Source of the DNA: an uncultured Phocaeicola sp.
GTDB lineage: Bacteria > Bacteroidota > Bacteroidia > Bacteroidales > Bacteroidaceae
Reading direction: 5' to 3'
NCBI GenBank assembly: GCA_948956705.1
Contig: CARCZS010000010.1
Location: 1 to 64,000, forward strand
Length of the DNA: 64,000 nt
This document shows, piece by piece, positions 3,445 through 18,076 of the stretch (the first letter of the stretch is position 1; each line of letters begins with the position of its first letter). The notes beneath the pieces are model-generated. The model was given only the letters and a program-made list of their open reading frames with translations, was not told where the DNA came from and made no database searches. The position numbers and the translations under genes are program-made.

Positions 3445-3978
3445 TCAGGCACAACGGAAAACAAAGCCGTTATCCATCCAGTAATCAGTTATAAACAGGT
3501 CATGGGCAAAAGCCGAATAATCAAAGTAGGTTTTTGCGAACTCCGGCAGGTCATAACATTCCTCTACGATTGCATAGGCGTAATCTTCCTCGTCTGTATA
3601 CTCTCCCTGATATTCGTCCTCAAAAGAAGAAATAAGGTCGTCCGCATCTTCTTCGCTTATATCGCTGTTGTGGTGGTCGCACCATACGAAAAACGCTTCC
3701 TGCTCGGTTTCGCTTAGTTTTTCGATGGCATCCCAAAGCTCAAAGAACTTATCAGAAAGCCAACTTTCGGAAATCAAGGCTTCGGGTATGTCCTCGATGT
3801 CCTGAAACATAAATTCCGGGTCTTCTTCGTCCTCGTGGAGTTCCCGGCACGCTTCCATAAATTCGTCCTTGTCCGAATAATCGAAAAGGTCTAACCACTT
3901 GCCGAAAAGTGAACCGTTGTTATACTTGGCGTAAGTACCTACATAAACTCTTGCTGCTGATAATGTTACTGTTTCCAT
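3445..3978 (-). CDS. ardA: antirestriction protein ArdA
   Basis: 177 residues, very acidic (for example DEEDPEFMFQDIEDIPE, DISEEDADDLISSFEDE), with the ArdA N-terminal pattern RVYVGTYAKYNNGSLFGKWLDL and central FFVWCDHH. ArdA proteins are DNA mimics that bind type I restriction enzymes and protect incoming conjugative DNA; the acidic surface explains the composition. Its place near the integrase end of the ICE fits early expression after transfer. Upstream lies a regulatory module (4045-4250) also found before radC. Confidence 0.88.
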   Translation of the reverse strand: METVTLSAARVYVGTYAKYNNGSLFGKWLDLFDYSDKDEFMEACRELHEDEEDPEFMFQDIEDIPEALISESWLSDKFFELWDAIEKLSETEQEAFFVWCDHHNSDISEEDADDLISSFEDEYQGEYTDEEDYAYAIVEECYDLPEFAKTYFDYSAFAHDLFITDYWMDNGFVFRCA

Positions 3979-4044
3979 GACTTTTGTATTTTAATTGTTT
4001 ACATCGCTTATCGCCCACCACATAAATTTTTCCTTTAACTGAAT

Positions 4045-4250
4045 GGGAACATTGTCTTTTCAAAGGTTCGGGAATGGTACAGGGCAAATTATTATTTATG
4101 AAATACTACCCGCAGGTGTGGAGATTTCTAAAAAATAATTTGAACAGTAACAGGCACGGATATACCTTTGACAATGTTCCAATCAGTTTTAGGGAAAATT
4201 TTTCTCTTGTTTGAGAGGATAGAAGTAAAAGCCATCAGGCTTTTTGTATT
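4045..4250. promoter_or_regulatory. divergent promoter/operator module upstream of ardA
   Basis: A conserved block CCCGCAGGTGTGGAGATTT at 4109-4127 recurs upstream of radC. To its right on the + strand is a promoter: TTTG 4139-4142, 20 bp, TACCTTTG 4163-4170. The sequence after that promoter (GACAATGTTCC, 4170-4180) appears inverted at 4046-4057, placing a mirror-image start toward ardA. A hairpin AAAGCC-ATCA-GGCTTT followed by TTGTATT at about 4231-4250 could end a ~75-nt + strand transcript, i.e. a possible small RNA antisense-oriented to radC. Confidence 0.4.
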
Positions 4251-4276
4251 GGGTAATGAGAGAGTAAAAAAAGGGC

Positions 4277-4729
4277 TTATAAAAGCCCCTCGTCTGCAAA
4301 ACTGTAATAGCTTTCTTCTGTCAGGATGATATGGTCTAACAGGTGTAAATCCAAGACATTGCAGGCTTCTTTTATTTTTGAGGTGATTTGTTTGTCCGGT
4401 TCGCTCGGACGCAGGTTGCCCGATGGGTGGTTATGTGAGAGGATTATCCCCGAAGCGTGGACTTTCAGGGCGGTTTGCAGGATGATTTTCACGTCCATAA
4501 CAGTTTCAGCCATGCCACCTTTAGAGATAAGGGAAACGCCTAAAGCCTTGTTAGCCCGGTTGAGGAACATTACATAACTTTCTTCGTGGTGTTCCATACA
4601 TTCCGCATAGAACGGTTTCAGGTAAGAGTAGGACGTTTCGGATGAGAGTATTTTCACCCTTTCGGATGCTTTTACATTGTCTTTATAGGAGATAGTGATT
4701 TCCGGCATGGTAAATTCTGTTGTTTTCAT
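4277..4729 (-). CDS. radC: RadC-family JAB-domain protein
   Basis: 150 residues. The JAMM/MPN metal motif is visible: HASGIILSHNHPSGN... (HxH plus the Asp in LLDHIILTEESYYSF), at about residues 92-140, filling most of the protein. RadC-like proteins of this short type are common in Bacteroides ICEs and other mobile elements; their biochemical role is not established despite the DNA-repair name. The helix-hairpin-helix of chromosomal RadC is missing, as usual in the mobile-element form. It lies between ardA and the ORF6N gene, same strand. Confidence 0.85.
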   Translation of the reverse strand: MKTTEFTMPEITISYKDNVKASERVKILSSETSYSYLKPFYAECMEHHEESYVMFLNRANKALGVSLISKGGMAETVMDVKIILQTALKVHASGIILSHNHPSGNLRPSEPDKQITSKIKEACNVLDLHLLDHIILTEESYYSFADEGLL

Positions 4730-4820
4730 GACTACTGAATTTTAAATTAAACAATAAGAAATTTTGCCGGACACCCACAGTTTGGCGGGGACTTCAACCA
4801 TATCTTTTCAAAAAATACAA

Positions 4821-4896
4821 CCCGTAGGTGTGGAGATTTTTTAGAAAACCGGAACGGCTCGGATTTGGTATTTGTCCCCACCGGGCTGTAACTTTG
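4821..4896 (+). promoter_or_regulatory. second copy of the AGGTGTGGAGATTT promoter module, upstream of radC
   Basis: CCCGTAGGTGTGGAGATTT at 4821-4839 differs from the ardA copy by one base. A + strand promoter follows: TTTG 4864-4867, 21 bp, TAACTTTG 4889-4896. The block lies about 95 bp from the radC start, so it may control radC on the minus strand and a short + strand transcript at once. Confidence 0.4.
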
Positions 4897-4936
4897 CTAA
4901 AATTTGTGATTGAGATACATTACTTTAGGGAACTGA

Positions 4937-4966
4937 AAAAGGGGTATCACTGGTGACACCCCTTAG
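4937..4966 (-). terminator. terminator of the ORF6N gene
   Basis: AAGGGGTaTCAC and GTGAcACCCCTT form a near-perfect stem. On the minus strand it is followed by a T-run (CCCCTTTTTC), just after the ORF6N stop at 4988. Confidence 0.65.
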
Positions 4967-4987
4967 ACAACCGAATACCTTAAACCG

Positions 4988-5494
4988 TTATTCGTCATAG
5001 GTTCTATATCCTATCGGTTTGCGTGGCTTCGGTTCGGGCTTGCTTAGTAACTGGGTAAGTGCTTGATAAACTTCGCTGAATTGTGCATCCGTACTCTGTT
5101 CCAGTTCTTCGATGCGTTTAAGAAGTTCCTCGTAACCGATTGACATTTGCCGCATGAGGACGAAAGCACGCATGATGGAAATATTCACGTCTATAGCGGT
5201 CTGACTGCGTAAGACACTACTAAGCATGGCGACACCCTGCTCCAAAAATGCGAGAGGCGGGGTCGGCGTGTGCCGGATATTTTCAGGGAACTTATCACAA
5301 TTTGTGATAAGTTCCTGCCATTCATCCTTTGTTAGCTGAAAAGCAAAGTCACTAGGAAAACGGGATAAGTTTCTTTTAACAGCCTGTTTCAAAGCTCTTG
5401 TTTCAACTTGATAAAGCTCTGCCAAATGGAAATCGAGCATGACCCGGCAACCCCTGACCTCAAAGATTTTGTTTTGGATGATTTGTAAGTCCAT
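4988..5494 (-). CDS. ORF6N-domain (KilA-N-like) DNA-binding protein
   Basis: 168 residues. The ORF6N domain spans about residues 5-90: IFEVRGCRVMLDFHLAELYQ, VETRALKQAVKRN, RFPSDFAFQLTKDEW, then AFLEQGVAMLSSVLRS and AIDVNISIMRAFVLMR. The C-terminus is a short coiled segment (ELLKRIEELEQSTDAQFSEVYQ). ORF6N proteins are presumed regulators or DNA-binding factors in phages and ICEs. A 29-bp palindrome occurs both inside this gene and just upstream of it, suggesting a binding site. It is on the same strand as the integrase, 77 bp downstream of its stop. Confidence 0.8.
   Translation of the reverse strand: MDLQIIQNKIFEVRGCRVMLDFHLAELYQVETRALKQAVKRNLSRFPSDFAFQLTKDEWQELITNCDKFPENIRHTPTPPLAFLEQGVAMLSSVLRSQTAIDVNISIMRAFVLMRQMSIGYEELLKRIEELEQSTDAQFSEVYQALTQLLSKPEPKPRKPIGYRTYDE
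5287..5315. repeat. 29-bp perfect palindrome inside the ORF6N gene
   Basis: GGAACTTATCACAA-T-TTGTGATAAGTTCC, arms 14 bp, single-base centre. Same sequence as 5533-5561 apart from one arm base and the centre. Coding for part of ITNCDKFPEN. Confidence 0.8.
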
Positions 5495-5532
5495 AATGTT
5501 ATTATTTAATGGTGAGTAATTAAAAGCATAAA

Positions 5533-5561
5533 GGAACTTATCACAAATTGTGATAAGTCCC
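5533..5561. repeat. 29-bp palindrome between integrase stop and ORF6N start
   Basis: GGAACTTATCACAA-A-TTGTGATAAGTCCC; 13 of 14 arm pairs. It lies 39 bp upstream of the ORF6N start codon and 10 bp beyond the integrase stop, so it could be an operator for ORF6N or a processing/terminating hairpin after int. Confidence 0.75.
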
Positions 5562-5570
5562 CCTATATAC

Positions 5571-6809
5571 CTATTTCATAGATACTTCTTTGTAGATTTT
5601 TTCAATTCCGACAAACTTCTTGTCAAGCCCCTGCATATCGTTACTTATCTTGTTATTGGTAATGCGGGCGTATATCTGTGTCGTTTCTATATTGGTGTGT
5701 CCCAACATCTTGCTGACTGTTTCAATGGGTACACCTTTAGCAAGAGTAGTCGTGGTGGCAAATGTGTGCCTTGCAAGGTGAAATGTCAAGTTCTTTTTAA
5801 TCCCGCACACGTCCGCTATTTCTTTCAAATACGCATTAAGTTTTTGATTGCTGATAATGGGAAGTACCTTTCCATTCGGCAATTTACCTTTGTATTTTTC
5901 CAATATCATTTTAGGAATATCCAGCAAAGGAACATTCACGTCTGTATTCGTTTTCTGACGCTTTGTAATTATCCATAAATTACCGTCAAAGGACTTGCGG
6001 ATATTATCTTCCTTTAAGTTTGCAACATCCACATAAGCCAAACCACTGAAACAGGAAAAGATAAAAACATCACGCACCTGTTCCAATCGCTCGGAAACCA
6101 TCTTCTTTTTGAGGATGATTTTTATTTCGTCCTCTGTCAAATACCCTCTATCCACTTTCTCCAAACGTATTTTATAGTTGGCGAACGGGTCGCCTACCAA
6201 GATGCCGTTATTACGGGCTATCAAGATAATGCGTTTGAAGAACTGCATGAACTTGGCAGTCGTATTATAACCACATTTACAGGTGGTACGCAAATATAAC
6301 TCGAAGTCAGTAATGAACATCGGGGTTATTTCCTTTATAGAAATATCCGACAGGTTATATTTGCTTTGGATGAACTCGGCAAGATGGCGACGGGTCACTT
6401 CATATTTGCGATAAGTGGCAATCGTTTTGGATATGCCGACCAACTGTTTCACATCGTCATTGTGCTTTTGGAAAAGGTTAAGGATGGTATCGTGGTTTTC
6501 GCTATGCCCTAAAAATTCATTCTTCACCTTTTCGGCGGTAACATAATTGTCACGCCTTTGCAATTCGTGATAGATGGTATTAAGGGATGCGTTTATATCA
6601 TCCAGCAATCGGTTGATACGGGTAGCTTCCGCAGAACGCCCGGCGGCTTTGCCTGCCTTACCGTCCCAAAGTTTGGGTTGAACGTCCAGTTTGGAATTAA
6701 AACGGCTTGCCACACCATCAATCGTGATGCGGACAAAAATAGGGTAACTGCCATTGATTTTTTGCTTGTCCTTTTTCACAAAGAAAAGAACGGAAAATGT
6801 ACTCTTCAT
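5571..6809 (-). CDS. int: ICE tyrosine recombinase (IntDOT-like integrase)
   Basis: 412 residues: N-terminal arm-binding domain (to about 100), SAM-like core-binding domain (about 115-215), catalytic domain (about 225-400). Catalytic residues visible: HLARHTFAT (HxxR), LGHTNIETTQIYARI (H and nucleophile Tyr), plus Lys in the KRQKTNTDV hairpin. The box that normally holds ArgI reads CFSGLAYVDV, with Ala where most enzymes have Arg; CTnDOT integrase also lacks this Arg (Ser there), so this fits the IntDOT class rather than inactivation. It is the terminal gene of the ICE and its transcription points into the element. Start ATG at 6809. Confidence 0.9.
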   Translation of the reverse strand: MKSTFSVLFFVKKDKQKINGSYPIFVRITIDGVASRFNSKLDVQPKLWDGKAGKAAGRSAEATRINRLLDDINASLNTIYHELQRRDNYVTAEKVKNEFLGHSENHDTILNLFQKHNDDVKQLVGISKTIATYRKYEVTRRHLAEFIQSKYNLSDISIKEITPMFITDFELYLRTTCKCGYNTTAKFMQFFKRIILIARNNGILVGDPFANYKIRLEKVDRGYLTEDEIKIILKKKMVSERLEQVRDVFIFSCFSGLAYVDVANLKEDNIRKSFDGNLWIITKRQKTNTDVNVPLLDIPKMILEKYKGKLPNGKVLPIISNQKLNAYLKEIADVCGIKKNLTFHLARHTFATTTTLAKGVPIETVSKMLGHTNIETTQIYARITNNKISNDMQGLDKKFVGIEKIYKEVSMK

Positions 6810-7083: not shown

Positions 7084-7096
7084 GCGGAGAGACAGG
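7084..7096. repeat. attL: 13-bp core of the NBU2-like element
   Basis: GCGGAGAGACAGG is identical to the 3' end of tRNA-Ser at 17991-18003; flanking bases differ on both sides, so the match is exactly 13 bp. From what I recall, NBU2 recombines in tRNA-Ser 3' ends through a core of this size. Confidence 0.85.
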
Positions 7097-7213
7097 CTCC
7101 CGAACCTACGCTTTCAGAAAATATCATAAAATTGCAAATCACTGATAATCATACATTATCTACAATGCAGAGTAAATCTAAATCTTTCTAAATGCCTTTT
7201 GCTATTTCAATTT

Positions 7214-7234
7214 TTGGGTGTATATTTGGGTGTA
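7214..7234 (+). repeat. paired TTGGGTGTA repeats upstream of the integrase
   Basis: TTGGGTGTA at 7214-7222 and 7226-7234, 12 bp apart; a third exact copy is at 17937-17945 near attR. Copies at both element ends suggest arm-type integrase sites. Confidence 0.45.
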
Positions 7235-7255
7235 GAATTTCAAACGCACCCAATT

Positions 7256-8539
7256 ATGAATATCAAACGTAACATCATTTTTGCATTGGAGAGCCGGAAG
7301 AAGAACGGTGTGCCAATCGTAGAGAACGTGCCTATCCGTATGCGCGTCATATACGCAAGTCAACGTATCGAGTTTACAACAGGCTACCGGATTGACGTAG
7401 CCAAATGGGATGCCGACAAACAACGGGTAAAGAACGGATGTACCAACAAGCTGAAACAAAGCGCATCCGAAATCAATGCGGACTTGCTGAAATACTATGC
7501 CGAAATGCAAAACGTGTTCAAGGAGTTTGAGGTACAGGAAACCATGCCCACCACCCAACAGCTAAAGGATGCGTTCAATCTGCGGATGAAAGACAGCAGT
7601 GAAGAACAACAGGAAGAAGTACAGATTAGTTTTTGGGAAGTGTTTGATGAGTTTGTAAAAGAGTGTGGCAACCAGAATAATTGGACGGTATCCACATACG
7701 AGAAATTTGCAGCGGTGAGAAATCACCTCAAAGAGTTCAAGGAAGATGTAACCTTTGAATACTTCAACGAGTTCGGGCTGAACGAGTATGTCAATTTCTT
7801 GCGTGACAAAAAGGACATGAGAAACAGCACCATCGGCAAACAGATGGGGTTTCTCAAATGGTTCCTGCGCTGGAGTTTCAAAAAAGGACATCATCAGAAC
7901 ATTGCATACAACGCATTCAAGCCCAAATTGAAAACAACCCCTAAAAAGGTAATATTCCTGACATGGGATGAACTGAACAAGCTGAAAGATTATCAAATAC
8001 CGCATGACAAGCAGTATTTGGAACGTGTCAGGGATGTCTTTCTGTTCTGTTGCTTCACGAGCTTACGATATTCGGATGTCCGTAACTTGAAAAGAAGTGA
8101 TATTAAGCCCGACCACATTGAAGTCACCACAGTCAAGACTGCGGACAGCCTGATAATCGAACTGAACGACCACAGCAAAGCCATTCTTGAAAAATACAAG
8201 GATGTTCATTTCGAGAACCACATGGCATTGCCCGTCATCAGTAATCAGAAGATGAACGATTATCTGAAAGAACTGGGTGAACTGGCGGAAATCAACGAGC
8301 CTGTACGGGAAACCTACTACAAGGGAAATGAGCGCATAGATGAAGTCACACCCAAATACGCATTGTTAAGCACCCATGCCGGAAGAAAGACTTTCATCTG
8401 TAATGCGTTGGCACTCGGAATTCCGGCACCGGTGGTTATGAAATGGACTGGACACAGTGATTACAAAGCCATGAAGCCCTACATTGATATAGCGGATGAC
8501 ATCAGAGCAAACGCCATGAACAAGTTTAATCAACTATAA
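7256..8539 (+). CDS. NBU2-type integrase (tyrosine recombinase)
   Basis: 427 residues from ATG 7256 (MNIKRNIIFALESRKKNGVP); the frame is open further upstream, but that part overlaps the repeat pair and is not conserved-looking. Catalytic residues: CFTSLRYSDVRNLK (ArgI), STHAGRKTF (HxxR), WTGHSDYKAMKPYIDI (H and nucleophile Tyr). The N-terminal arm-binding domain and SAM-like domain (WTVSTYEKFAAVRNHLKEF...) are complete. Unlike the ICE integrase at 5571-6809, it keeps ArgI. Position 160 bp inside attL and the tRNA-Ser target match the NBU2 integrase IntN2. It should catalyse integration and excision between attL and attR. Confidence 0.9.
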   Translation: MNIKRNIIFALESRKKNGVPIVENVPIRMRVIYASQRIEFTTGYRIDVAKWDADKQRVKNGCTNKLKQSASEINADLLKYYAEMQNVFKEFEVQETMPTTQQLKDAFNLRMKDSSEEQQEEVQISFWEVFDEFVKECGNQNNWTVSTYEKFAAVRNHLKEFKEDVTFEYFNEFGLNEYVNFLRDKKDMRNSTIGKQMGFLKWFLRWSFKKGHHQNIAYNAFKPKLKTTPKKVIFLTWDELNKLKDYQIPHDKQYLERVRDVFLFCCFTSLRYSDVRNLKRSDIKPDHIEVTTVKTADSLIIELNDHSKAILEKYKDVHFENHMALPVISNQKMNDYLKELGELAEINEPVRETYYKGNERIDEVTPKYALLSTHAGRKTFICNALALGIPAPVVMKWTGHSDYKAMKPYIDIADDIRANAMNKFNQL

Positions 8540-8604: not shown

Positions 8605-9894
8605 ATGAGCAACAACGGACATAACATAGAAAAGACGAATTTTGATGCATTTATAAATGCTGTCGGTTCGGAAATACAACAGGCGCAAGTACGGCTGATT
8701 ACCGCTGCCAATGCGCAAATGTTGTTCCATTACTGGAAAATGGGCAACTATATTCTCTATCATCAGCAACTGCACGGATGGGGAAGCAAAACCATCAAAC
8801 AGTTGGCAAAGGCTATCCGGCTGAATTTCCCTGAAAAGAAAGGCTATTCAGAACGCAACCTTACCTATATGTGTCAGTTTGCAAGAACATATCCATTGAG
8901 AGCATTGCAGAATTTCATTGATACGGATGCAAGACTGTCTGTTCCAAACATACAGAATGTAACAAATGAAGTATTAAAACTGAACGACAAGCAATTTGCG
9001 CAGGAACTTACTGCGCAAATACAATCCGTTGATTGTCAGTCTTTAGAATTTACGCAGGAAACTCCTGCGCAAATTCAGGACGTAGAGAAAACCGTTTCTG
9101 CCATTTACAGAATGGGAATTAGGGAGATAGAAAAAATTTTCTTGAACTCCCCTGTCGCCAGAATAAACTGGGCAAGCCAAATGGTTATACTTGATGGCTC
9201 GTTACCGTTAGGCATAGGATATTGGTACATGAAACAGTCCGTGGAAATGGGCTGGAGCAGTAATGTTCTTAAAATACAAATTGAGACCAACTTATATAGC
9301 AGACAAATCAGCAACAACAAGGTAAACAATTTCACAGCCACGCTTCCTGCACCGCAAAGCGACCTTGCCAATTACCTGTTGAAAGACCCGTACATCTTTG
9401 ATTTGGCTGGAACGAAGGAAAAGGCGGACGAAAGGGACATAGAAGAACAATTGGTTAAGCACGTCACCCGTTACTTGCTGGAAATGGGCAATGGCTTTGC
9501 CTTTGTTGCCCGACAAAAACACTTTCAAATTGGTAACAGCGATTTCTATGCAGACTTGATTCTGTATTCCATCCCCCTGCACGCATACATCGTAGTGGAA
9601 TTGAAAGCGACCCCATTCAAACCGGAGTATGCGGGGCAACTGAACTTCTACATCAATGTGGTGGATGACAAACTGAGGGGAGAGAATGACAACAAGACTA
9701 TCGGGTTGTTGCTGTGCAAGGGGAAAGACGAAGTTGTAGCGCAATACGCATTGACAGGCTACGACCAGCCGATAGGCATCAGCGATTACCAACTGAGCAA
9801 GGCTATACCTGAAAACTTAAAATCGGCTCTGCCAAGTATAGAAGAAGTGGAGGAAGAACTGACTTCCCTTCTTGATAAAGATAAGAATCCATAA
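8605..9894 (+). CDS. DUF1016/YhcG-family PDDEXK nuclease
   Basis: 429 residues. N-terminal DUF1016 region (about 10-105: LFHYWKMGNYILYHQQLHGWGSKTI..., RNLTYMCQFARTYP) and C-terminal PDDEXK nuclease fold (about 275-420): Asp in SDFYADLILY (about 313/317), VVELK (Glu332-x-Lys334), QLNFY motif (Gln345). All catalytic positions are present. YhcG-type proteins are frequent on mobile elements and in restriction/defence neighbourhoods; their exact role is unsettled. A linker at about 130-165 carries repeats of AQIQ absent in the usual domain. It is followed after 11 bp by the 341-residue gene and they probably form one operon. Confidence 0.85.
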   Translation: MSNNGHNIEKTNFDAFINAVGSEIQQAQVRLITAANAQMLFHYWKMGNYILYHQQLHGWGSKTIKQLAKAIRLNFPEKKGYSERNLTYMCQFARTYPLRALQNFIDTDARLSVPNIQNVTNEVLKLNDKQFAQELTAQIQSVDCQSLEFTQETPAQIQDVEKTVSAIYRMGIREIEKIFLNSPVARINWASQMVILDGSLPLGIGYWYMKQSVEMGWSSNVLKIQIETNLYSRQISNNKVNNFTATLPAPQSDLANYLLKDPYIFDLAGTKEKADERDIEEQLVKHVTRYLLEMGNGFAFVARQKHFQIGNSDFYADLILYSIPLHAYIVVELKATPFKPEYAGQLNFYINVVDDKLRGENDNKTIGLLLCKGKDEVVAQYALTGYDQPIGISDYQLSKAIPENLKSALPSIEEVEEELTSLLDKDKNP

Positions 9895-11077: not shown

Positions 11078-11156
11078 TAATTTTGCATCGTTCGAGAACA
11101 GAGATAACAGCCAGTGCGCAGGGCTGATTGTTTAACGGCTAAATAGATTGAACGAT
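11078..11156 (+). promoter_or_regulatory. promoter and leader of the helix-turn-helix/RepA/primase genes
   Basis: -7 element TAATTTTG at 11078-11085, no clear -33. The ~65-nt leader begins with ATCGTTC (11087-11093) and ends with its complement GAACGAT (11150-11156) that overlaps the start codon, so the start could be sequestered in a stem. Confidence 0.4.
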
Positions 11157-11463
11157 GACAAATCTTCAAGAGTTATTATTAAAACCCGTCTGGCAGATGA
11201 CAGGCGAAGAGTTCATATTCCTGAGCAAGCACGCTTCCGGTCAAACGGAAACGCAACCACGACCCGTTACGGACACAGAAAGAAAATATGTGTACGGAAT
11301 ACTGGGCATAGCCAAACTGTTCGGGTGCAGCCTGCCCACCGCCAACCGCATAAAGAAAAGCGGAAAGATAGACAAAGCCATTACGCAAATAGGGCGCAAG
11401 ATTATCGTGGATGCGGAACTTGCCCTTGAACTGGCAGGAAAGAAAACCGGAGGACGGAAATAA
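11155..11463 (+). CDS. small helix-turn-helix protein (DUF3853, NBU orf2-like)
   Basis: 102 residues; residues about 40-90 hold an excisionase/MerR-like helix-turn-helix: YVYGILGIAKLFGCSLPTANRIKKSG then KIDKAITQIGRKIIVDAEL, where the last part is the wing. It matches the DUF3853 proteins found at this place in Bacteroides mobilizable elements. Likely a DNA-binding protein acting in excision or control of the downstream ATPase and primase; neither role is shown here. The next gene starts 8 bp after its stop. Confidence 0.75.
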   Translation: MTNLQELLLKPVWQMTGEEFIFLSKHASGQTETQPRPVTDTERKYVYGILGIAKLFGCSLPTANRIKKSGKIDKAITQIGRKIIVDAELALELAGKKTGGRK

Positions 11464-11471
11464 CGGGAGGA

Positions 11472-12554
11472 ATGGCTATGGACTACATGAAAGAGTTTAA
11501 GGACATATCGGCAGAAGAAGCCGTAATCCTTTGGCAAGCCTCACGTTTGAGCCTGTCGAAAAGTTATGAGAAAGCACCCGAAATCCTCAAAGTGCATGGT
11601 TCTGTCATTGGGACATTGGGCAATTTCAGCGCATCCATCGGCAAAGCCAAAAGTAAAAAGACATTCAATGTTTCGGCTATTGTAGCCGCCGCATTGAAGA
11701 ATGGCACAGTGTTGCGGTATGTAGCGGAACTCTCCGACGGGAAGCGGAAAGTGCTTTATGTTGATACGGAGCAAAGTCCTTATCATTGCCTGAAAGTCAT
11801 GAAACGCATTTTACGGATGGCTGACTTGCCTGATGACAGGGATAATGAGAACCTTGAGTTTCTCGCCTTGAGAAAATACACACCTGAACAGCGTATCAGG
11901 ATTGTCGAACAGGCTATCTATAATACGCCCGACATTGGTCTTGTAATCATAGACGGCATCCGTGACATGGTATATGACATCAACAGCCCCGGCGAATCCA
12001 CACGCATCATATCCAAACTGATGCAGTGGACGGACGACAGGCAGATACATATCCATACGATACTGCACCAGAACAAAGGGGATGAGAATGCGAGAGGGCA
12101 TATCGGCACGGAGTTGAACAATAAGGCGGAAACCGTATTGCTGGTGGAAAAAGACAAAAGCAACGGAGATATAAGCAATGTTTCAGCCATGCACATCCGG
12201 GCAATGGATTTCGAGCCTTTTGCCTTTCGTATCAATGACAGTGCCTTGCCTGAACTCATAGAGGGTTACAAACCCGAAGCGAAGAAACCGGGAAGACCGG
12301 AAGAGGAAAAGTTCGACCCTTACAGGCATATTACCGAGCAGCAGCACCGTATCGCATTGGAAGCCGTTTTCGGGCTGAAAGAGGAATACGGTTACAAGGA
12401 ACTGGAAGATGCCTTAATCAAAAGCTATACGTCAATAGGTGTAAAGCTGAACCATCAAAAGGCGGTACCGCTCATCACCATGCTTCGCAACAAACGGATG
12501 ATAGTGCAGGAGAACGGCAGAAAATACACATTCATGCCCGACTTCCACTATTAA
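11472..12554 (+). CDS. RepA-like AAA/RecA-fold ATPase
   Basis: 360 residues. RecA-fold core at about 45-250: P-loop region GNFSASIGKAKSKKTF, a second strand VLYVDTEQS, Walker B IGLVIIDGIRDMV, and sensor-like IHIHTILHQNKGDENARGHIG. The Walker A is non-canonical: the Gly before Lys-Thr is Lys (GKAKSKKT). This pattern looks usual for the family in Bacteroidetes. C-terminal winged-helix-like segment (YRHITEQQHRIALEAVF...). RepA-type hexameric helicases act with the primase encoded next in plasmid-like replication of the excised circle. Confidence 0.75.
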   Translation: MAMDYMKEFKDISAEEAVILWQASRLSLSKSYEKAPEILKVHGSVIGTLGNFSASIGKAKSKKTFNVSAIVAAALKNGTVLRYVAELSDGKRKVLYVDTEQSPYHCLKVMKRILRMADLPDDRDNENLEFLALRKYTPEQRIRIVEQAIYNTPDIGLVIIDGIRDMVYDINSPGESTRIISKLMQWTDDRQIHIHTILHQNKGDENARGHIGTELNNKAETVLLVEKDKSNGDISNVSAMHIRAMDFEPFAFRINDSALPELIEGYKPEAKKPGRPEEEKFDPYRHITEQQHRIALEAVFGLKEEYGYKELEDALIKSYTSIGVKLNHQKAVPLITMLRNKRMIVQENGRKYTFMPDFHY

Positions 12555-12570
12555 CCCGTTACCTGCACTC

Positions 12571-12701
12571 GCTTCACTTTATTCTGTGGGTCTATATATT
12601 AAGGATAAAGCGAAGTGATGCAAGGAATGGATAAACCGCTTCACTTTATTGCCGTACTCTATATATACGACAATTTAGTGAAGTGGTTATATAGACCGTA
12701 C
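12571..12701. other. iteron-like region, candidate replication origin
   Basis: Between the RepA-like gene and the primase gene: GCTTCACTTTATT direct copies at 12571-12583 and 12638-12650; inverted relatives AAGCGAAGTGA (12608-12618) and TTTAGTGAAGTGG (12674-12686); and GGTCTATATA (about 12589-12598) with its inverse TATATAGACC (about 12688-12697). Clustered direct and inverted repeats between replication genes fit an oriV or operator. Confidence 0.5.
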
Positions 12702-12766
12702 TTCTTAAAATGGTACGGGCGAAAAGAAAAATAAATCAATTCATTAACTACTCAAACAATTATCTT

Positions 12767-13723
12767 ATGGATATACAGACAGCCAAGCAAATCAGGATAG
12801 CGGATTATCTGCACAGTTTGGGATATTCTCCCGTCAAACAACAGGGTATCAACCTATGGTATAAATCACCGTTAAGGGAAGAAACCGAAGCCTCGTTCAA
12901 GGTAAATACCGAACGTAACCAATGGTATGATTTTGCACTCGGCAAAGGTGGCGGCATCATCGAACTGGCACAGGAGCTTTATTGTTCCACCTGCATTTCC
13001 TACATCTTACAGAAAATTGAGGAACAGACACCACACATCCGCCCAGTGTCTTTCTCTTTTGGCAAGCAATCATTTTCCGAGCCAAGTTTTCAACAACTGG
13101 AGATTGTACCGCTTTCTTCTCCTGCCCTGCTCTCCTATTTGCAGGAAAGGGGAATAAACACAGAACTGGCGAAAAGAGAATGCAGTGAAGCGCACTTCAC
13201 CAACAACGGCAAGCGGTATTTCGCCATTGCCTTTCCCAATGTATCGGGTGGATATGAAATTCGCAACCGCTATTTCAAGGGCTGCATCGCCCCAAAGGAA
13301 ATTTCCCACATCAAACAGCCAGAGAAAACAAGGGAAACGTGTTATGTGTTCGAGGGATTCATGGACTACCTCTCCTTTCTGACATTGAGACAGGAGAGCT
13401 GCCCGAATTATCCGGAGTTGGACGAACAGGACTACATTGTATTGAACTCCGTATCGAATGTAAGCAAGGCTCTCTATCCTTTGGGTAGCTACGAACGCAT
13501 CCATTGTTTCTTTGACAATGACCGTGCAGGGATGGAAGCACTCCGGCAAATCCGTATGGAATACGGCAGGGATTTATACATCCGTGACGCTTCGCAGACC
13601 TACAGCGGATGCAAGGACTTGAACGAATACCTACAGAAACAGGCTGAAAGAAACAGGCAAATCCAGTCCGTAAGAAAGACGCACACCCAGCCACCGAAAA
13701 AGAAGAACGGCTTTCGGTTATAG
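12767..13723 (+). CDS. DNA primase with TOPRIM domain (NBU prmN-like)
   Basis: 318 residues from ATG 12767; an upstream in-frame ATG at 12710 lies in the repeat region and is less likely. N-terminal CHC2-like fold without its zinc cysteines (IADYLHSLGYS..., SPLREETEASFKVN, QWYDFALGKGGGIIELAQ), then a TOPRIM domain at about 195-290: CYVFEGFMDYLSFL (catalytic Glu), IHCFFDNDRAGMEAL (DxD) and DLNEYLQKQ. NBU primases are needed for replication of the transferred strand. Downstream is the oriT-like region and the relaxase gene. Confidence 0.85.
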   Translation: MDIQTAKQIRIADYLHSLGYSPVKQQGINLWYKSPLREETEASFKVNTERNQWYDFALGKGGGIIELAQELYCSTCISYILQKIEEQTPHIRPVSFSFGKQSFSEPSFQQLEIVPLSSPALLSYLQERGINTELAKRECSEAHFTNNGKRYFAIAFPNVSGGYEIRNRYFKGCIAPKEISHIKQPEKTRETCYVFEGFMDYLSFLTLRQESCPNYPELDEQDYIVLNSVSNVSKALYPLGSYERIHCFFDNDRAGMEALRQIRMEYGRDLYIRDASQTYSGCKDLNEYLQKQAERNRQIQSVRKTHTQPPKKKNGFRL

Positions 13724-13925
13724 CCCACTATAACTACACGCTCCGCTTTCGTAGTTGTGGGCTCTCCCGAGGGGATTAGGGCTTTGCCCTAATGACCCAC
13801 TCAGGGCGTTCACCCCTGAGAACCCCGAGCAAAGAGTGACCCTCTCTTTGCAATCACCGCTTATGGGTTGCACCCCTAAGAACCCCACTGCGGAAGCGAA
13901 CAAAGTAATCTAATGTAAACAAAAA
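13724..13925. other. oriT-like region with three hairpins
   Basis: GC-rich intergenic stretch just before the relaxase gene. Hairpins: CCCACTATAACTAC / GTAGTTGTGGG (about 13724-13762); ATTAGGGC-TTT-GCCCTAAT (about 13777-13795); CTCAGGG / CCCCTGAG (about 13801-13823). NBU oriT sites lie directly upstream of mob, so this is the expected nick region; the nic site is not identified. Confidence 0.6.
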
Positions 13926-13930
13926 AAATC

Positions 13931-15346
13931 ATGGCAACAAAATCAAGCATACATATCAAGCCTTGCAACATCGCATCGAGCGAGGCACACAACCGAAGGA
14001 CTGCCGAGTATATACGAAACATCGGGATGTCCAAAATCTATGTTGTGTCCGAACTTTCTGCCGACAACGAACAATGGATAAACCCGAACTTCGGCACTCC
14101 CGAACTGCAAACGCACTACGACAATATCAAACGGATGGTCAAAGAAAAGACCGGACGTGCCATGCAGGAAAAAGAGCGGGAACGCAAAGGAAAAAATGGT
14201 AAAATAATCAAGGTGGCAGGATGTTCCCCCATTCGTGAGGGTGTACTGCTCATCAGACCGGAAACCACACTGGCTGATGTGCGTGAATTTGGCGAAGAGT
14301 GCCAAAGACGCTGGGGCATCACGCCACTCCAAATATTCCTGCATAAGGATGAGGGGCATTGGCTGGGTGGAAAACCTGACACAGAAGACAAGGAGAGTTT
14401 CCAAGTGGGTGGAAAATGGTTCAAGCCGAATTATCATGCCCATATTGTTTTTGACTGGATGAACCACGATACAGGAAAGAGCCGTAAACTCAATGACGAG
14501 GATATGGCAAAAATGCAGACTTTGGCATCAGACATTCTAATGATGGAACGTGGGCAATCAAAAAATGTTACTGGTAAGGAGCATTTGGAACGAAATGACT
14601 TCATCATTGAGAAGCAGAAAGCCGAACTACAACGTATAGAGGAAACCAAGCGACACAAGGAACAACAAGTAAGCCTTGCCGAGCAGGAACTCAAACAAAT
14701 AAAATCGGAAATACGCACCGACAAACTCAAAAGCGTAGCCACCGATGCGGCCACTGCCATAGCAAGTGGTGTCGGTTTTCTTTTCGGAAGTGGAAAGTTG
14801 AAAGAATTGGAGCGAACCAACGAAGATTTGCATCAAGAGGTTGCCAAACGTGATAAAGGTATTGACAACCTCAAAATCCAAATGCAGGAAATGCAAGAGC
14901 AACATGACAAACAGATACGCAATCTTCAAGGAATACACAGTCAAGAACTTGAAGCTAAAGACAGAGAAATATCACGGCTGAACACTCTGCTTGAAAAGGC
15001 ATTCAAGTGGTTTCCGATGTTTAGAGAAATGTTGAGAATGGAAAGACTATGCGCTGTCATTGGGTTTACCAAAGATATGATAGATTGTCTTTTGACAAAG
15101 AAAGAAGCCATCAGATGCAATGGTAAGATTTATTCCGAGGAACATAAACGAAAGTTTGACATCAAGAACGATATTTTCAAGGTGGAGAAAAATCCAGCCG
15201 ATAGCGGTAAACTTATGCTGACCATAAACAGACAGCCGATTGGAGAGTGGTTCAAAAAGCAGTTTGATAAGTTACGGCAAAGTTTACGAATATCAGCAGA
15301 AGAACCAAGAAAAAGCAGGGGATTCAAATTTATTGCTGTCCGGTAA
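13931..15346 (+). CDS. mob: MobV-type relaxase (Pre/Mob family)
   Basis: 471 residues. Relaxase domain in the first ~210 residues with the Pre/Mob signature: N-terminal RRTAEYIRNIG, then FLHKDEGHW and PNYHAHIVFDWMN (metal-binding HxH). The rest is a long coiled coil (about 215-345, including KAELQRIEETKRHKEQQVSL and EQHDKQIRNLQ) and a small C-terminal domain. It nicks oriT and pilots the strand into the ICE mating channel. The final five residues (IAVR plus part of F) and the stop are encoded by the left end of a MITE inserted at 15331; without it the protein would end in ...RGFKL. The catalytic part is untouched. Confidence 0.88.
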   Translation: MATKSSIHIKPCNIASSEAHNRRTAEYIRNIGMSKIYVVSELSADNEQWINPNFGTPELQTHYDNIKRMVKEKTGRAMQEKERERKGKNGKIIKVAGCSPIREGVLLIRPETTLADVREFGEECQRRWGITPLQIFLHKDEGHWLGGKPDTEDKESFQVGGKWFKPNYHAHIVFDWMNHDTGKSRKLNDEDMAKMQTLASDILMMERGQSKNVTGKEHLERNDFIIEKQKAELQRIEETKRHKEQQVSLAEQELKQIKSEIRTDKLKSVATDAATAIASGVGFLFGSGKLKELERTNEDLHQEVAKRDKGIDNLKIQMQEMQEQHDKQIRNLQGIHSQELEAKDREISRLNTLLEKAFKWFPMFREMLRMERLCAVIGFTKDMIDCLLTKKEAIRCNGKIYSEEHKRKFDIKNDIFKVEKNPADSGKLMLTINRQPIGEWFKKQFDKLRQSLRISAEEPRKSRGFKFIAVR

Positions 15347-15550
15347 AAAACGACAAAATCATATATTCTCTACAAATATAATAAGTTACACCTGTTTTAC
15401 GAAAAAGGGCTTGTCATTTGAGGCGATGTGAAATTGGTAGCATTAAGCATCAAAAAGCCCTTAAAAGACATCTATACGAGTCTGTTTCATGCTGTATGAG
15501 ATAAAAATAGTCCATTTCCTATCATGTCAAAGTTTTACCGGACAGCAATA
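15331..15550. mobile_element. 220-bp MITE with 18-bp inverted repeats and 9-bp target duplication
   Basis: Ends are perfect inverted repeats of TATTGCTGTCCGGTAAAA (15331-15348 and 15533-15550), flanked by direct repeats ATTCAAATT (15322-15330 and 15551-15559). No transposase inside; the core holds an 8-bp inverted pair AAGGGCTT/AAGCCCTT. A 9-bp duplication and these ends are of the kind made by IS4-like transposases, but I cannot name the parent element. Confidence 0.85.
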
Positions 15551-15577
15551 ATTCAAATTATAATTGTTTAAATCAGA

Positions 15578-15663: not shown

Positions 15664-17622
15664 CTAAAAATACAATTCATCATCCGTTCGATAGCCTGCC
15701 ACATAAAACAAACCACAATTTTTACATTGCAATGTAAACTCCCAATCCCATTTAGGGAAGCTACAATAAGACGATTCCAACAAACCGCCACATTGACAAC
15801 AATATTTATTTTCTGAAACAAAATTTAATTGAATTGGAGAGTTTTTACAGTATTTAACAATTCCTCTTTGAGATAATTCCCAAAAACATTCTGCCGTAGC
15901 TCTTACGTCATACAAGGAATTATGCATATTATCAAAATCTTTGTGAAATAAGTAATTGTACAATTCCTTTAAAGAAGGGTATTTGTACTTTCTATCAGCC
16001 ATATTACTTTCAATTTTACACACATCTACAGTAGCCTTCATCGTACAAATAATACATATTCCATAAAACAGTAGATTTATATCATCCTTTGACAACTCTG
16101 TATAACGCAAGAGCTCACATTTAAGAACATTTATATCAAAATCCGCATTATGAACTACTATATAATGAACAGCTTTTAGCTGCTCCACGAAATATCTATA
16201 AAAATCTCGTCTATCCCATCCTTCTTCCTGTGCCCTATCATTAGTAATTCCATGAATAGAAACAGAAGCAGCAGGAATTGTGAAGCAATCTGGTTTCAAT
16301 ATATAATCAGACTCCTTCAATATATCATTATCATAACCTGAAAAGATTTGATAACTTATTTGAACTACGTACGGCCAGTTATCTATATTATCAAAAGACA
16401 CGTTCAAATCTTGTGCCAGTCCTGTTGTTTCAATATCCAAAACAAGGATTACTGTCTGATATAAATCATAGCGTCTGACACTAGGTCCTATATTTGTCAC
16501 TTTACAATGGATTATTTCTTCATAATTTAATGCTGTATTATAGCCAAATTCTTGCAAAGATGATAATAAGACCGAAGAAGATATCGTCTGTGGATCATTT
16601 TGAGGTAATCCACCAATAAAATTATAATTGAAACCATATCCAGACAAAGAAGGTGGCATTATTACATGACATTTCCATCTCAATTCTATTCGTTTAAAAA
16701 CGTTTTTATATTTTTCATTTGGCTCAAAAACAATAAAACCTGCATTTTTAAAAAGCTTCTCTGCGTGGCTATTCATTAGTAAATTAGAAGGCAATTCTTC
16801 CACCTTTATCCAAACATGAAAACCATTATTACTTCCAGTACTAATAACCCAATCATATATGCCTTTAATGCCCAAAGATAATAAGACCTGTTTTACAAAT
16901 TCAGTAGAAGAACAGCCATCAATATCAATGCACCTATACGAATTAGCACCAGAAAGGACACCAATACCTGTCGCGGAATTCCAAAAATAAGATTTCCATT
17001 CAATATTATTGTAACAATTCGTTATGTGTTTTCTTTTTCTAAAATAAGTAATAGGTCTTTTAAATTGTTGAACAAAATCATATTGTGACAATGTAAAGTC
17101 TGTATTTTCTGTTTTTATCAAATCCAGTTCATCTAAATGAAGTATTTGATAGCTTATCTTATTTGCAACTACATCTTTATATTCACAAATAACCGCATCA
17201 GTCCACCAATCCCAATCTTCAAACTTATCAGCCTTTATACGGGCAGAATTTCTAAAACAGAAATAATTACTAAACGGTAAAGCCGTAGCAACACTATCAG
17301 TTTCAGCATCCATACCACTTGACAAATTAATCGCCTCGTAAATTCTATTTACATCATTTTTTACTATATCAATTTTAAATATAGGTGAACAGTCTTTTTG
17401 ACATTCAAATATCGCCCAAAGTATATTCTCCTTCAATCCAAGACTAATGTTATATATCTCATTATCATAATATTTACAGAAGTTTTGAAATGTAAACACA
17501 CGCAAAACGCCCTTATTTCCAAAATATCCATTTATGAATGTGACTTGAAATCCCATTGACTTATAAAAATGAGAATACAACGAGAATTTGTCTCTATTAC
17601 AAATGATTGTGTTGCTTTGCAT
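15664..17622 (-). CDS. primase-polymerase / DEDDh exonuclease / zinc-ribbon fusion protein
   Basis: 652 residues. N-terminal ~200 residues match nothing I know. AEP primase-polymerase domain about 200-360: motif I RCIDIDG (Asp233, Asp235), motif II STGSNNGFHVW (His269), motif III RIELRW (Glu313) followed by HVIMPPSLSGYGF. DEDDh 3'-5' exonuclease about 390-585: LDIETTG (Asp396, Glu398), VHNADFD (Asp496), HNSLYD (His567, Asp572); all five metal and base residues are present. C-terminal zinc ribbon 608-636 (Cys608/611 and Cys633/636). The family facts (prim-pol, DnaQ-like exonuclease) are established; joining them in one chain on an NBU cargo locus is unusual. Strongly AT-rich compared with the mobilization genes. 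It starts 3 bp after the 60-residue gene. Confidence 0.8.
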   Translation of the reverse strand: MQSNTIICNRDKFSLYSHFYKSMGFQVTFINGYFGNKGVLRVFTFQNFCKYYDNEIYNISLGLKENILWAIFECQKDCSPIFKIDIVKNDVNRIYEAINLSSGMDAETDSVATALPFSNYFCFRNSARIKADKFEDWDWWTDAVICEYKDVVANKISYQILHLDELDLIKTENTDFTLSQYDFVQQFKRPITYFRKRKHITNCYNNIEWKSYFWNSATGIGVLSGANSYRCIDIDGCSSTEFVKQVLLSLGIKGIYDWVISTGSNNGFHVWIKVEELPSNLLMNSHAEKLFKNAGFIVFEPNEKYKNVFKRIELRWKCHVIMPPSLSGYGFNYNFIGGLPQNDPQTISSSVLLSSLQEFGYNTALNYEEIIHCKVTNIGPSVRRYDLYQTVILVLDIETTGLAQDLNVSFDNIDNWPYVVQISYQIFSGYDNDILKESDYILKPDCFTIPAASVSIHGITNDRAQEEGWDRRDFYRYFVEQLKAVHYIVVHNADFDINVLKCELLRYTELSKDDINLLFYGICIICTMKATVDVCKIESNMADRKYKYPSLKELYNYLFHKDFDNMHNSLYDVRATAECFWELSQRGIVKYCKNSPIQLNFVSENKYCCQCGGLLESSYCSFPKWDWEFTLQCKNCGLFYVAGYRTDDELYF

Positions 17623-17625
17623 AAC

Positions 17626-17808
17626 TTATGATATTTTATTTATGGAAAGTATCTCCAATTTATCCATTTCTATATTACATTTTAAATACTTAGCCAATTC
17701 TACTTTTATAGAATACTTAATATCCCGCATTTGCAGATTATTATTAGAAAAGTTTATATAATAAACACCAACAGTTCCATTCAGCTTATATTTAACCTCA
17801 TATTCCAT
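17626..17808 (-). CDS. 60-residue protein, first gene of the prim-pol operon
   Basis: 60 residues, MEYEVKYKLNGTVGVYYINF..., predicted as two strands, a helix (MRDIKYSIKVELAKYLKC) and a final strand (KLEILSINKI), an arrangement like a small alpha/beta domain. No family recognised. A good promoter precedes it (17823-17853) and the prim-pol ORF follows 3 bp later, so translation of the two is coupled and a partner or inhibitor role is plausible. Confidence 0.6.
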   Translation of the reverse strand: MEYEVKYKLNGTVGVYYINFSNNNLQMRDIKYSIKVELAKYLKCNIEMDKLEILSINKIS

Positions 17809-17853: not shown

Positions 17854-17918
17854 GAAATGATTTATAATTATACCCAACTATGAGCCAGTGAAATATTAAA
17901 TCTTAAATAAAACAAAAA

Positions 17919-17956
17919 ACACCCGATTTTACATTCTTGGGTGTAAAATCGGGTGT
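17919..17956 (-). terminator. terminator of tRNA-Ser supplied by the element
   Basis: ACACCCGATTTTACA (17919-17933) pairs with TGTAAAATCGGGTGT (17942-17956), a 15-bp perfect stem, followed on the minus strand by GTTTTTTGTTTTATTT. It lies 36 bp beyond the tRNA-Ser 3' end and inside the NBU2-like element. Confidence 0.8.
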
Positions 17957-17990
17957 TAATCTTATAAATCATTGAAATTCAATGATTATT

Positions 17991-18003
17991 GCGGAGAGAC
18001 AGG
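17991..18003. repeat. attR: 13-bp core within tRNA-Ser
   Basis: GCGGAGAGACAGG, identical to attL at 7084-7096. It covers the acceptor 3' strand and the start of the T arm, so integration leaves the tRNA sequence intact. Confidence 0.85.
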
Positions 18004-18076
18004 GATTCGAACCCCGGGTACCTCGCAGTACAACGGTTTTCAAGACCGCCGCAATCGACCACTCTGCCACCTCTCC
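17992..18076 (-). tRNA. tRNA-Ser (anticodon UGA)
   Basis: The minus strand begins GGAGAGGTGGCAGAGTGG and ends TTCGAATCCCTGTCTCTCCG. Acceptor GGAGAGG pairs with the 3' CTCTCC; a long variable arm is visible (TACTGCGAGGTA), as in class II tRNAs; the anticodon loop is CTTGAAA, giving UGA. The discriminator is G at 17992 and CCA is not encoded. It is the integration target of the element to its left. Confidence 0.95.

Follow-up and report, generated by a model that had tools for sequence, protein, structure and literature searches.

A primase-polymerase joined to a DEDDh exonuclease as candidate conflict cargo of an NBU2-like element in an uncultured Phocaeicola sp.

The fused protein and its catalytic residues

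Analyses of a 64,000-nucleotide stretch of an uncultured Phocaeicola sp. (GenBank assembly GCA_948956705.1, contig CARCZS010000010.1, positions 1 to 64,000; this whole stretch is called the window) indicated that one gene of an NBU2-like mobile element codes for a protein in which an archaeo-eukaryotic primase domain (AEP, or PrimPol) is followed by a DEDDh exonuclease domain and a zinc ribbon. A preliminary description of the locus had placed these domains in one 652-residue chain, and Pfam, a structure match and the catalytic residues confirmed them. The gene probably shares an operon with a short upstream open reading frame (ORF), which shows one silent change relative to locus L001 and one relative to locus L002.

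15664..17622, minus strand: AEP (PrimPol)-DEDDh exonuclease-zinc ribbon protein, 652 aa
16450..17067, minus strand: main part of the AEP domain, residues 186-391; catalytic D233, D235, H269 and E313
15856..16449, minus strand: DEDDh 3'-5' exonuclease domain, about residues 392-589; catalytic D396, E398, D496, H567 and D572
15664..15801, minus strand: zinc ribbon (C608, C611, C633 and C636; predicted to bind zinc) and C-terminal tail TDDELYF
17626..17808, minus strand: 60-codon ORF for a putative protein, 3 bp upstream of the AEP gene

The AEP fold was recovered in the window protein together with both motif-I acids, the motif-II histidine and the motif-III acid; its score against PF09250 Prim-Pol was 19.7 bits, below the curated Pfam cut-off of 22.8, which in Pfam was passed by the homologs L119, L052, L120, L154 and L155 and not by L122. 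The DEDDh fold was found with all five catalytic residues, and the S. aureus DinG exonuclease was among the top structural matches of this domain. A phmmer search of the window protein against solved structures gave no match, and PADLOC, NCBIfam and PHROGs returned exonuclease or polymerase families only, apart from one weak PHROG primase match (E 0.0046). No profile of PADLOC-DB v2 covers the whole protein; the DEDDh stretch alone has matches there, to a generic CRISPR-associated DEDDh model and weakly to PDC-S48. Primase/polymerase and exonuclease activities of the window protein are predicted from its domains and intact residues.

Compared with the pRN1 ORF904 PrimPol and PF09250, the window protein has Glu as the third acid (ExR motif), an insertion of about 155 residues and a fused DEDDh domain, and lacks the helicase domain. 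An ELRW-type AEP is common to the window protein and to the mobile-element primase-helicases P0053 and L197, whose AEP is joined to a helicase and not to a DEDDh domain. The exonuclease differs from those of Pol III epsilon, TREX, ExoI and S. aureus DinG in that it sits behind an AEP with a zinc ribbon after it, and in that its group has an NWP motif and changing partners (WG, LRR, MORN, TPR, pentapeptide, FGE). The CRISPR-associated Prim-Pols (CAPPs) described in the available text of PMC8211822 have other fusion partners and gave a weaker fold match than pRN1, and no Cas family was found among the ten window ORFs scanned. The AEP-DEDDh fusion is a variant built of known parts; no description of it as a fusion or as a defence gene was found among the open-access PMC matches listed, nor in the available text of PMC5862659, PMC10910872, PMC12839542, PMC10853773 and PMC8211822, and the word exonuclease occurs nowhere in the main text of PMC5862659.

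A search with the window protein gave 58 matches among the 7995 best candidates scored, and a profile of the compact form gave 196, of which the best 120 were listed; among the 119 further proteins listed, a simple motif test was passed by 60 for both domains and by 12 for the AEP only. Residues were compared in 28 AEP-DEDDh proteins (the window protein, eight loci, 18 database proteins and a Hymenobacter protein); P0010, which has no motif I, was left out, and of the 119 only L154, L119 and L122 were included. The four AEP catalytic residues were intact in 28/28 and the full five-residue DEDDh set in 24/28, so the polymerase is the more strictly kept part. The exceptions, L122, L196, P0009 and the Hymenobacter protein, have lost parts of the DEDDh set and kept all AEP residues, which weakens the candidacy of the exonuclease as an essential effector.

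Residue conservation also bears on whether the gene is a selectively neutral passenger. Codon changes are few, 5 silent and 6 replacement against L002 and 11 and 8 against L001, numbers too small alone to show constraint. A passenger is nevertheless hardly to be expected, since the catalytic residues are kept at 52-73% identity across P0003-P0009 (AEP 7/7, DEDDh 6/7) and one near-identical cluster holds 534 member sequences.

The window protein ends in DDELYF, an imperfect form of the tail of single-stranded-DNA-binding proteins (SSB), and acidic-LPF endings were found in L114, L115, L155, P0011, P0019 and P0172; the SSB endings themselves are TDDLPF (G001), ADDLPF (G528) and DDDLPF (G994), with DDELPC in a second SSB of G001. 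The tail pattern occurred in 4 of 1045 distinct ORF ends, a set drawn from genes other than SSB, and all four belong to this family, one of them to the window's own subfamily. As a family-wide trait the tail was rejected: it is matched by 10/58 proteins of the window search (eight of them the window's subfamily, with -LYF) and by 1/119 of the further listed proteins. It appears to be a real but optional trait that may mimic SSB, whose C-terminal hexapeptide DDDIPF has many partners among the proteins of nucleic-acid metabolism (PMC5872125, available text). The tail of the L197 primase-helicase, DDELGF, is also like the acidic tails of AEP-DEDDh proteins. The N-terminal insertion, the stricter conservation of the AEP and the SSB-like tail of some members go beyond the preliminary description.

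Relatives of the exonuclease are also fused to WG, MORN, TPR, pentapeptide, LRR or helicase domains, and the same exonuclease group was seen in frames of about 1400-1500 aa in many of the genomes swept. No AEP motif was found on checking G366 (L198, LRR-DEDDh), L017 and L156, nor in L157-L161, where the AEP motif alone was searched for. Judged by eye, pieces of L015 and L156 resemble polymerases of the DnaE type that contain a DEDDh domain of their own, and the DEDDh genes of L045 (WG-DEDDh) and L050 stand beside genes resembling DUF2971 by eye. The AEP proteins of L120 (7520-10006, Pfam), L121 (8331-10781, by eye) and P0133 end in FGE-sulfatase or Fib_succ_major domains, which we take to be C-type-lectin-like and known elsewhere as variable binding domains.

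The NBU2-like element and its cargo slot

Between the two att copies lies an NBU2-like element, the kind that the preliminary description had proposed from the sequence, with a length of about 10.9 kb. A tyrosine integrase, a Mob protein like those of other such elements and a 13-bp att pair at a tRNA-Ser were all found, a named NBU2 record standing outside the comparison, and GCGGAGAGACAGG stands in the window in two perfect copies and no more, one starting at 7084 and the other at 17991.

7084..7096, plus strand: attL, 13-bp GCGGAGAGACAGG, exact copy of the tRNA-Ser 3' end
7199..8539, plus strand: tyrosine integrase of the NBU2-like element (Pfam Phage_integrase, SAM-like and Arm domains)
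11155..15346, plus strand: NBU core (Pfam)
11155-11463, plus strand: DUF3853 protein, NBU core
11472-12554, plus strand: AAA_25 ATPase, NBU core
12710-13723, plus strand: Toprim/CHC2 primase, NBU core
13931-15346, plus strand: relaxase-like Mob protein, NBU core (weak Pfam match, E 0.041)
15331..15550: 220-bp insertion with 18-bp perfect inverted ends and a 9-bp target duplication (15322-15330, 15551-15559)
17918..17957: 16-bp hairpin within the conserved attR-side end of the element
17991..18003, plus strand: attR, second 13-bp copy of GCGGAGAGACAGG, within tRNA-Ser(tga) at 17991-18076 (minus strand)

Relatives of the Mob protein (E <= 1e-30) occur in 34/61 genomes of the nearest genus, with 81-86% identity in the 19 best matches of that search. 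The 220-bp insertion, which L001 and L002 lack, alters the C-terminal residues of the Mob protein and resembles a small non-autonomous transposable element. The element also carries, at 8605-9894, a gene for a YhcG/DUF1016 PDDEXK nuclease, which PADLOC matches strongly to its candidate family PDC-S02 (E 3.7e-120). Directly left of attL, in the region 3445-6809, a second tyrosine integrase (5571-6809) apparently marks the edge of another mobile element abutting this one. With the NBU2-like integrative mobilizable elements of PMC5704250 (available text, which reviews the cargo of integrative mobilizable elements, linAN2 of NBU2 among it) the element has in common the integrase, the relaxase-like Mob protein, the tRNA-Ser att site and cargo adjoining attR; the window cargo is AEP-DEDDh instead of linAN2 or other resistance genes.

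We examined 25 slots between Mob protein and attR, drawn from 40 stretches of which the others had no readable attR end, no relaxase, or were taken for other purposes. One boundary is missing in slots L085, L093 and L101, no relaxase match remains in L115, and L097 and L105 are bounded by tRNA; gene identities come from Pfam for ten proteins, and genes without a Pfam match were named by eye. A nucleotidyltransferase and MFS pair fills 9/25 slots (Pfam on one of the nine; the MFS frame is interrupted in L094), and others hold CAT, Abi_2, RES, NUDIX, PDZ/protease, HTH, GNAT or lipoprotein genes. The L114 slot, at a tRNA-Asp, contains an 814-aa leucine-rich-repeat (LRR)-AEP-DEDDh protein, whose identity to the window protein is 38% in the exonuclease and 30% in the AEP, and L115, a decayed element at tRNA-Ser, has a WG-repeat-DEDDh protein adjoining the conserved end. 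These counts carry a bias, as L002, L114 and L115 were known DEDDh carriers before their slots were examined; among slots found by the relaxase search AEP-DEDDh occurs in L114 only, itself known beforehand. The proposed attR-proximal cargo slot is borne out by the 13-bp att copies, the conserved end by the tRNA and the differing cargo in the same slot of other elements.

In L002, Bacteroides faecalis KCTC 15687, the window gene lies at the same kind of tRNA, and cargo, end and tRNA are 98.9% identical to the window whereas the core is 88.3% identical. This is a hint only that the cargo may move independently of the element core, since the 149-bp core piece of L001, at 97.3% identity, does not show it.

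Distribution and genomic neighbourhoods of the relatives

Genome sweeps covered 393, 399, 395, 345, 87 and 9 genomes, plus a plasmid set, and at the sensitivity used they revealed seven non-NBU lineages of AEP-DEDDh proteins (L120 and L121, from one genus, counted as one), whose neighbourhoods were all inspected. The distribution is patchy: within the orders to which two carriers belong, 1/87 and 1/9 genomes were positive, the carriers themselves. A phage or plasmid replication family was rejected, as coverage of 80% of the window protein was reached in 0/50,697 phage and 0/72,556 plasmid records; with L155 as query, the same records gave one plasmid match (Hymenobacter pHsw1) and no phage, and no relative came up when IMG/VR was scanned with exact short patterns. 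Homologs always accompanied by core replication genes of one plasmid family, the outcome that the preliminary description had named as adverse to a defence role, were not observed.

Defence-type neighbours were identified in 6/7 non-NBU lineages. In L155 the AEP-DEDDh gene lies 273 bp downstream of, and on the same strand as, a complete CBASS set of cyclase (E 1.1e-140), HORMA, TRIP13 and NucC. In L196 a DUF262-type gene (Orf5 model, E 1.7e-178), IetA, IetS and HsdR (E 0) are followed by an AEP with degenerate DEDDh, while L153, the Hymenobacter plasmid pHsw1, carries SNF2, RecD-like, N6_N4 methylase, ResIII and Sacsin-helicase genes, an AEP with degenerate DEDDh and a DinG-like gene. L154 has a HEPN_AbiU2 gene (E 6.5e-13) 32 bp upstream and a 159-aa HsdM N-terminal piece about 3 kb off, and in L122, whose DEDDh is degenerate, the second gene downstream codes for a TPR-HEPN_LA2681 protein. 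L119 has three overlapping genes, one for a DrmC-like PLD protein (E 8.5e-7), one for AEP-DEDDh and one for a 294-aa protein without Pfam match; this operon runs opposite to phage-type genes, including an S49 peptidase and a capsid-like protein (prophage). PADLOC matches at E <= 1e-10 were obtained for 4/5 scanned neighbours in L155, 4/4 in L196, 2/2 in L153 and 1/3 in L154 (the HsdM piece). RxxxxH-type HEPN motifs were seen in the AEP-DEDDh partners of L154 (5095-5808, Pfam AbiU2) and L119 (6681-7565, by eye only, no Pfam match).

The likeness to CBASS, IetAS, type I restriction and AbiU2 HEPN systems is that they adjoin AEP-DEDDh genes of relatives, and the tie is one of neighbours only; to our knowledge, none of these systems has been described with an AEP-DEDDh protein among its components. 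The same neighbours bear on a counter-defence role, in which the gene would be expressed on entry for anti-restriction or to shield the incoming single strand. Such a role would suit the facts that the gene is placed terminally in a mobilizable element, that some relatives have an SSB-like tail and that the relative L119 is prophage-borne. We regard it as very unlikely because relatives beside CBASS and restriction genes look more like defence than evasion.

Conflict cargo, repair and element replication

With moderate confidence, we consider the window gene to be accessory conflict cargo, probably anti-phage or anti-mobile-element, of the NBU2-like integrative mobilizable element, with the PrimPol as core enzyme. 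Its computed basis consists of the domains, the intact catalytic residues, the cargo-slot position, the patchy relatives and the defence-type neighbours of those relatives; from these we infer an enzymatic activity, a target, a trigger and a protective effect of the window protein. The defence role raised in the preliminary description has thereby gained neighbourhood support (CBASS, HsdR-IetAS, HEPN, DrmC-like, methylase-helicase), protection itself being putative.

Several observations weigh against this reading. A control of 60 of the 136 neighbour ORFs of standalone DEDDh genes, scanned with PADLOC at a reach of 1.5 kb each side and unmatched to the longer stretches examined around AEP-DEDDh genes, also gave matches at E <= 1e-10, for at least about 13/60 ORFs by family name; among the families listed, the mad3 and REase_II models had three members each and 23 other models one each. 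Because the control is not empty, single PADLOC matches mean little, and the weight falls on the multi-gene cases L155 and L196. At this threshold no match was found among the scanned neighbours of L119 (0/2) and L122 (0/1), nor for the HEPN protein of L154. L120 and L121, with AEP-Sel1-DEDDh-FGE proteins in like chromosomal settings, have no defence gene recognised by eye among neighbours that lie outside the profile scan. In the window, PADLOC had no match on the AEP part of the protein, and among the four proteins scanned with it a good match to a (candidate) system was obtained for one, the YhcG-type nuclease at 8605-9894. The exonuclease is degenerate in L196, L153 and L122. AEP relatives without DEDDh occur in 12 genomes of one sweep, in frames of about 700-800 aa, and the one examined, L197 (7215-9575), is a primase-helicase whose AEP is of a like kind; with an integrase next to it, this is a case of element replication; P0053 is another relative without DEDDh, fused to a helicase.

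These helicase-fused relatives, which look like replication proteins, speak for a replication or maintenance factor of the NBU2-like element, priming after transfer or restarting forks during excision, as do the carriage of the gene on the element and the finding that AEPs are typical of mobile elements (PMC5862659, available text). Such a function is quite unlikely, given that the element has its own primase, noted already in the preliminary description and assigned to Toprim by Pfam, as well as an AAA_25 ATPase, that other NBU slots mostly hold unrelated cargo and that AEP-DEDDh relatives also occur outside NBU elements. The element-specific repair polymerase suggested earlier is weakened by the last two points and kept alive by P0053 and L197.

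A further alternative is DNA-damage-tolerance or repair cargo, whose PrimPol would reprime past lesions and whose DEDDh would proofread, so that the host survives genotoxic stress and the defence neighbours reflect shared islands only. S. aureus DinG, in which a DEDDh domain is fused to a helicase and which ranks among the top structural matches of the exonuclease, acts in crosslink repair (PMC12345164, available text), the SSB-like tail found in some members is in keeping with repair or replication, and the chromosomal L120/L121 forms stand without recognised defence context. We judge this alternative unlikely: the distribution is patchy, a complete CBASS set and HsdR-IetAS adjoin relatives, and the loss of exonuclease residues in 4/28 proteins that keep the AEP would remove proofreading.

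If the gene is conflict cargo, the AEP-DEDDh protein would respond to a trigger, for which the inserted N-terminal module or the 60-codon partner may be the sensor, and would be brought to single-stranded DNA at replication forks that are foreign or stalled. There its AEP domain would start or extend DNA, which the exonuclease may trim or proofread, and the outcome would be disturbed replication of the invader or rescue of the host fork; the exact act might be poisoning of phage replication, DNA as a signal, or repriming. By analogy with defence-associated reverse transcriptases, one may speculate further, and with considerable doubt, on a PrimPol-based immune family in which the AEP would make DNA on infection, untemplated or on phage single strands, as the effector step, with an optional DEDDh, repeat or sensor modules that can be swapped (LRR, Sel1, FGE/Fib-succ C-lectin-like) and, in part of the family, a tail that would imitate SSB and might dock on replication or repair proteins.

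Retrons and defence reverse transcriptases have made DNA-synthesising enzymes a theme of bacterial immunity. A PrimPol-exonuclease on a mobilizable element, with relatives by CBASS, restriction and HEPN genes, would extend this theme to the primase superfamily of archaea and eukaryotes, and as a single clonable gene of 2 kb it makes the idea directly testable.
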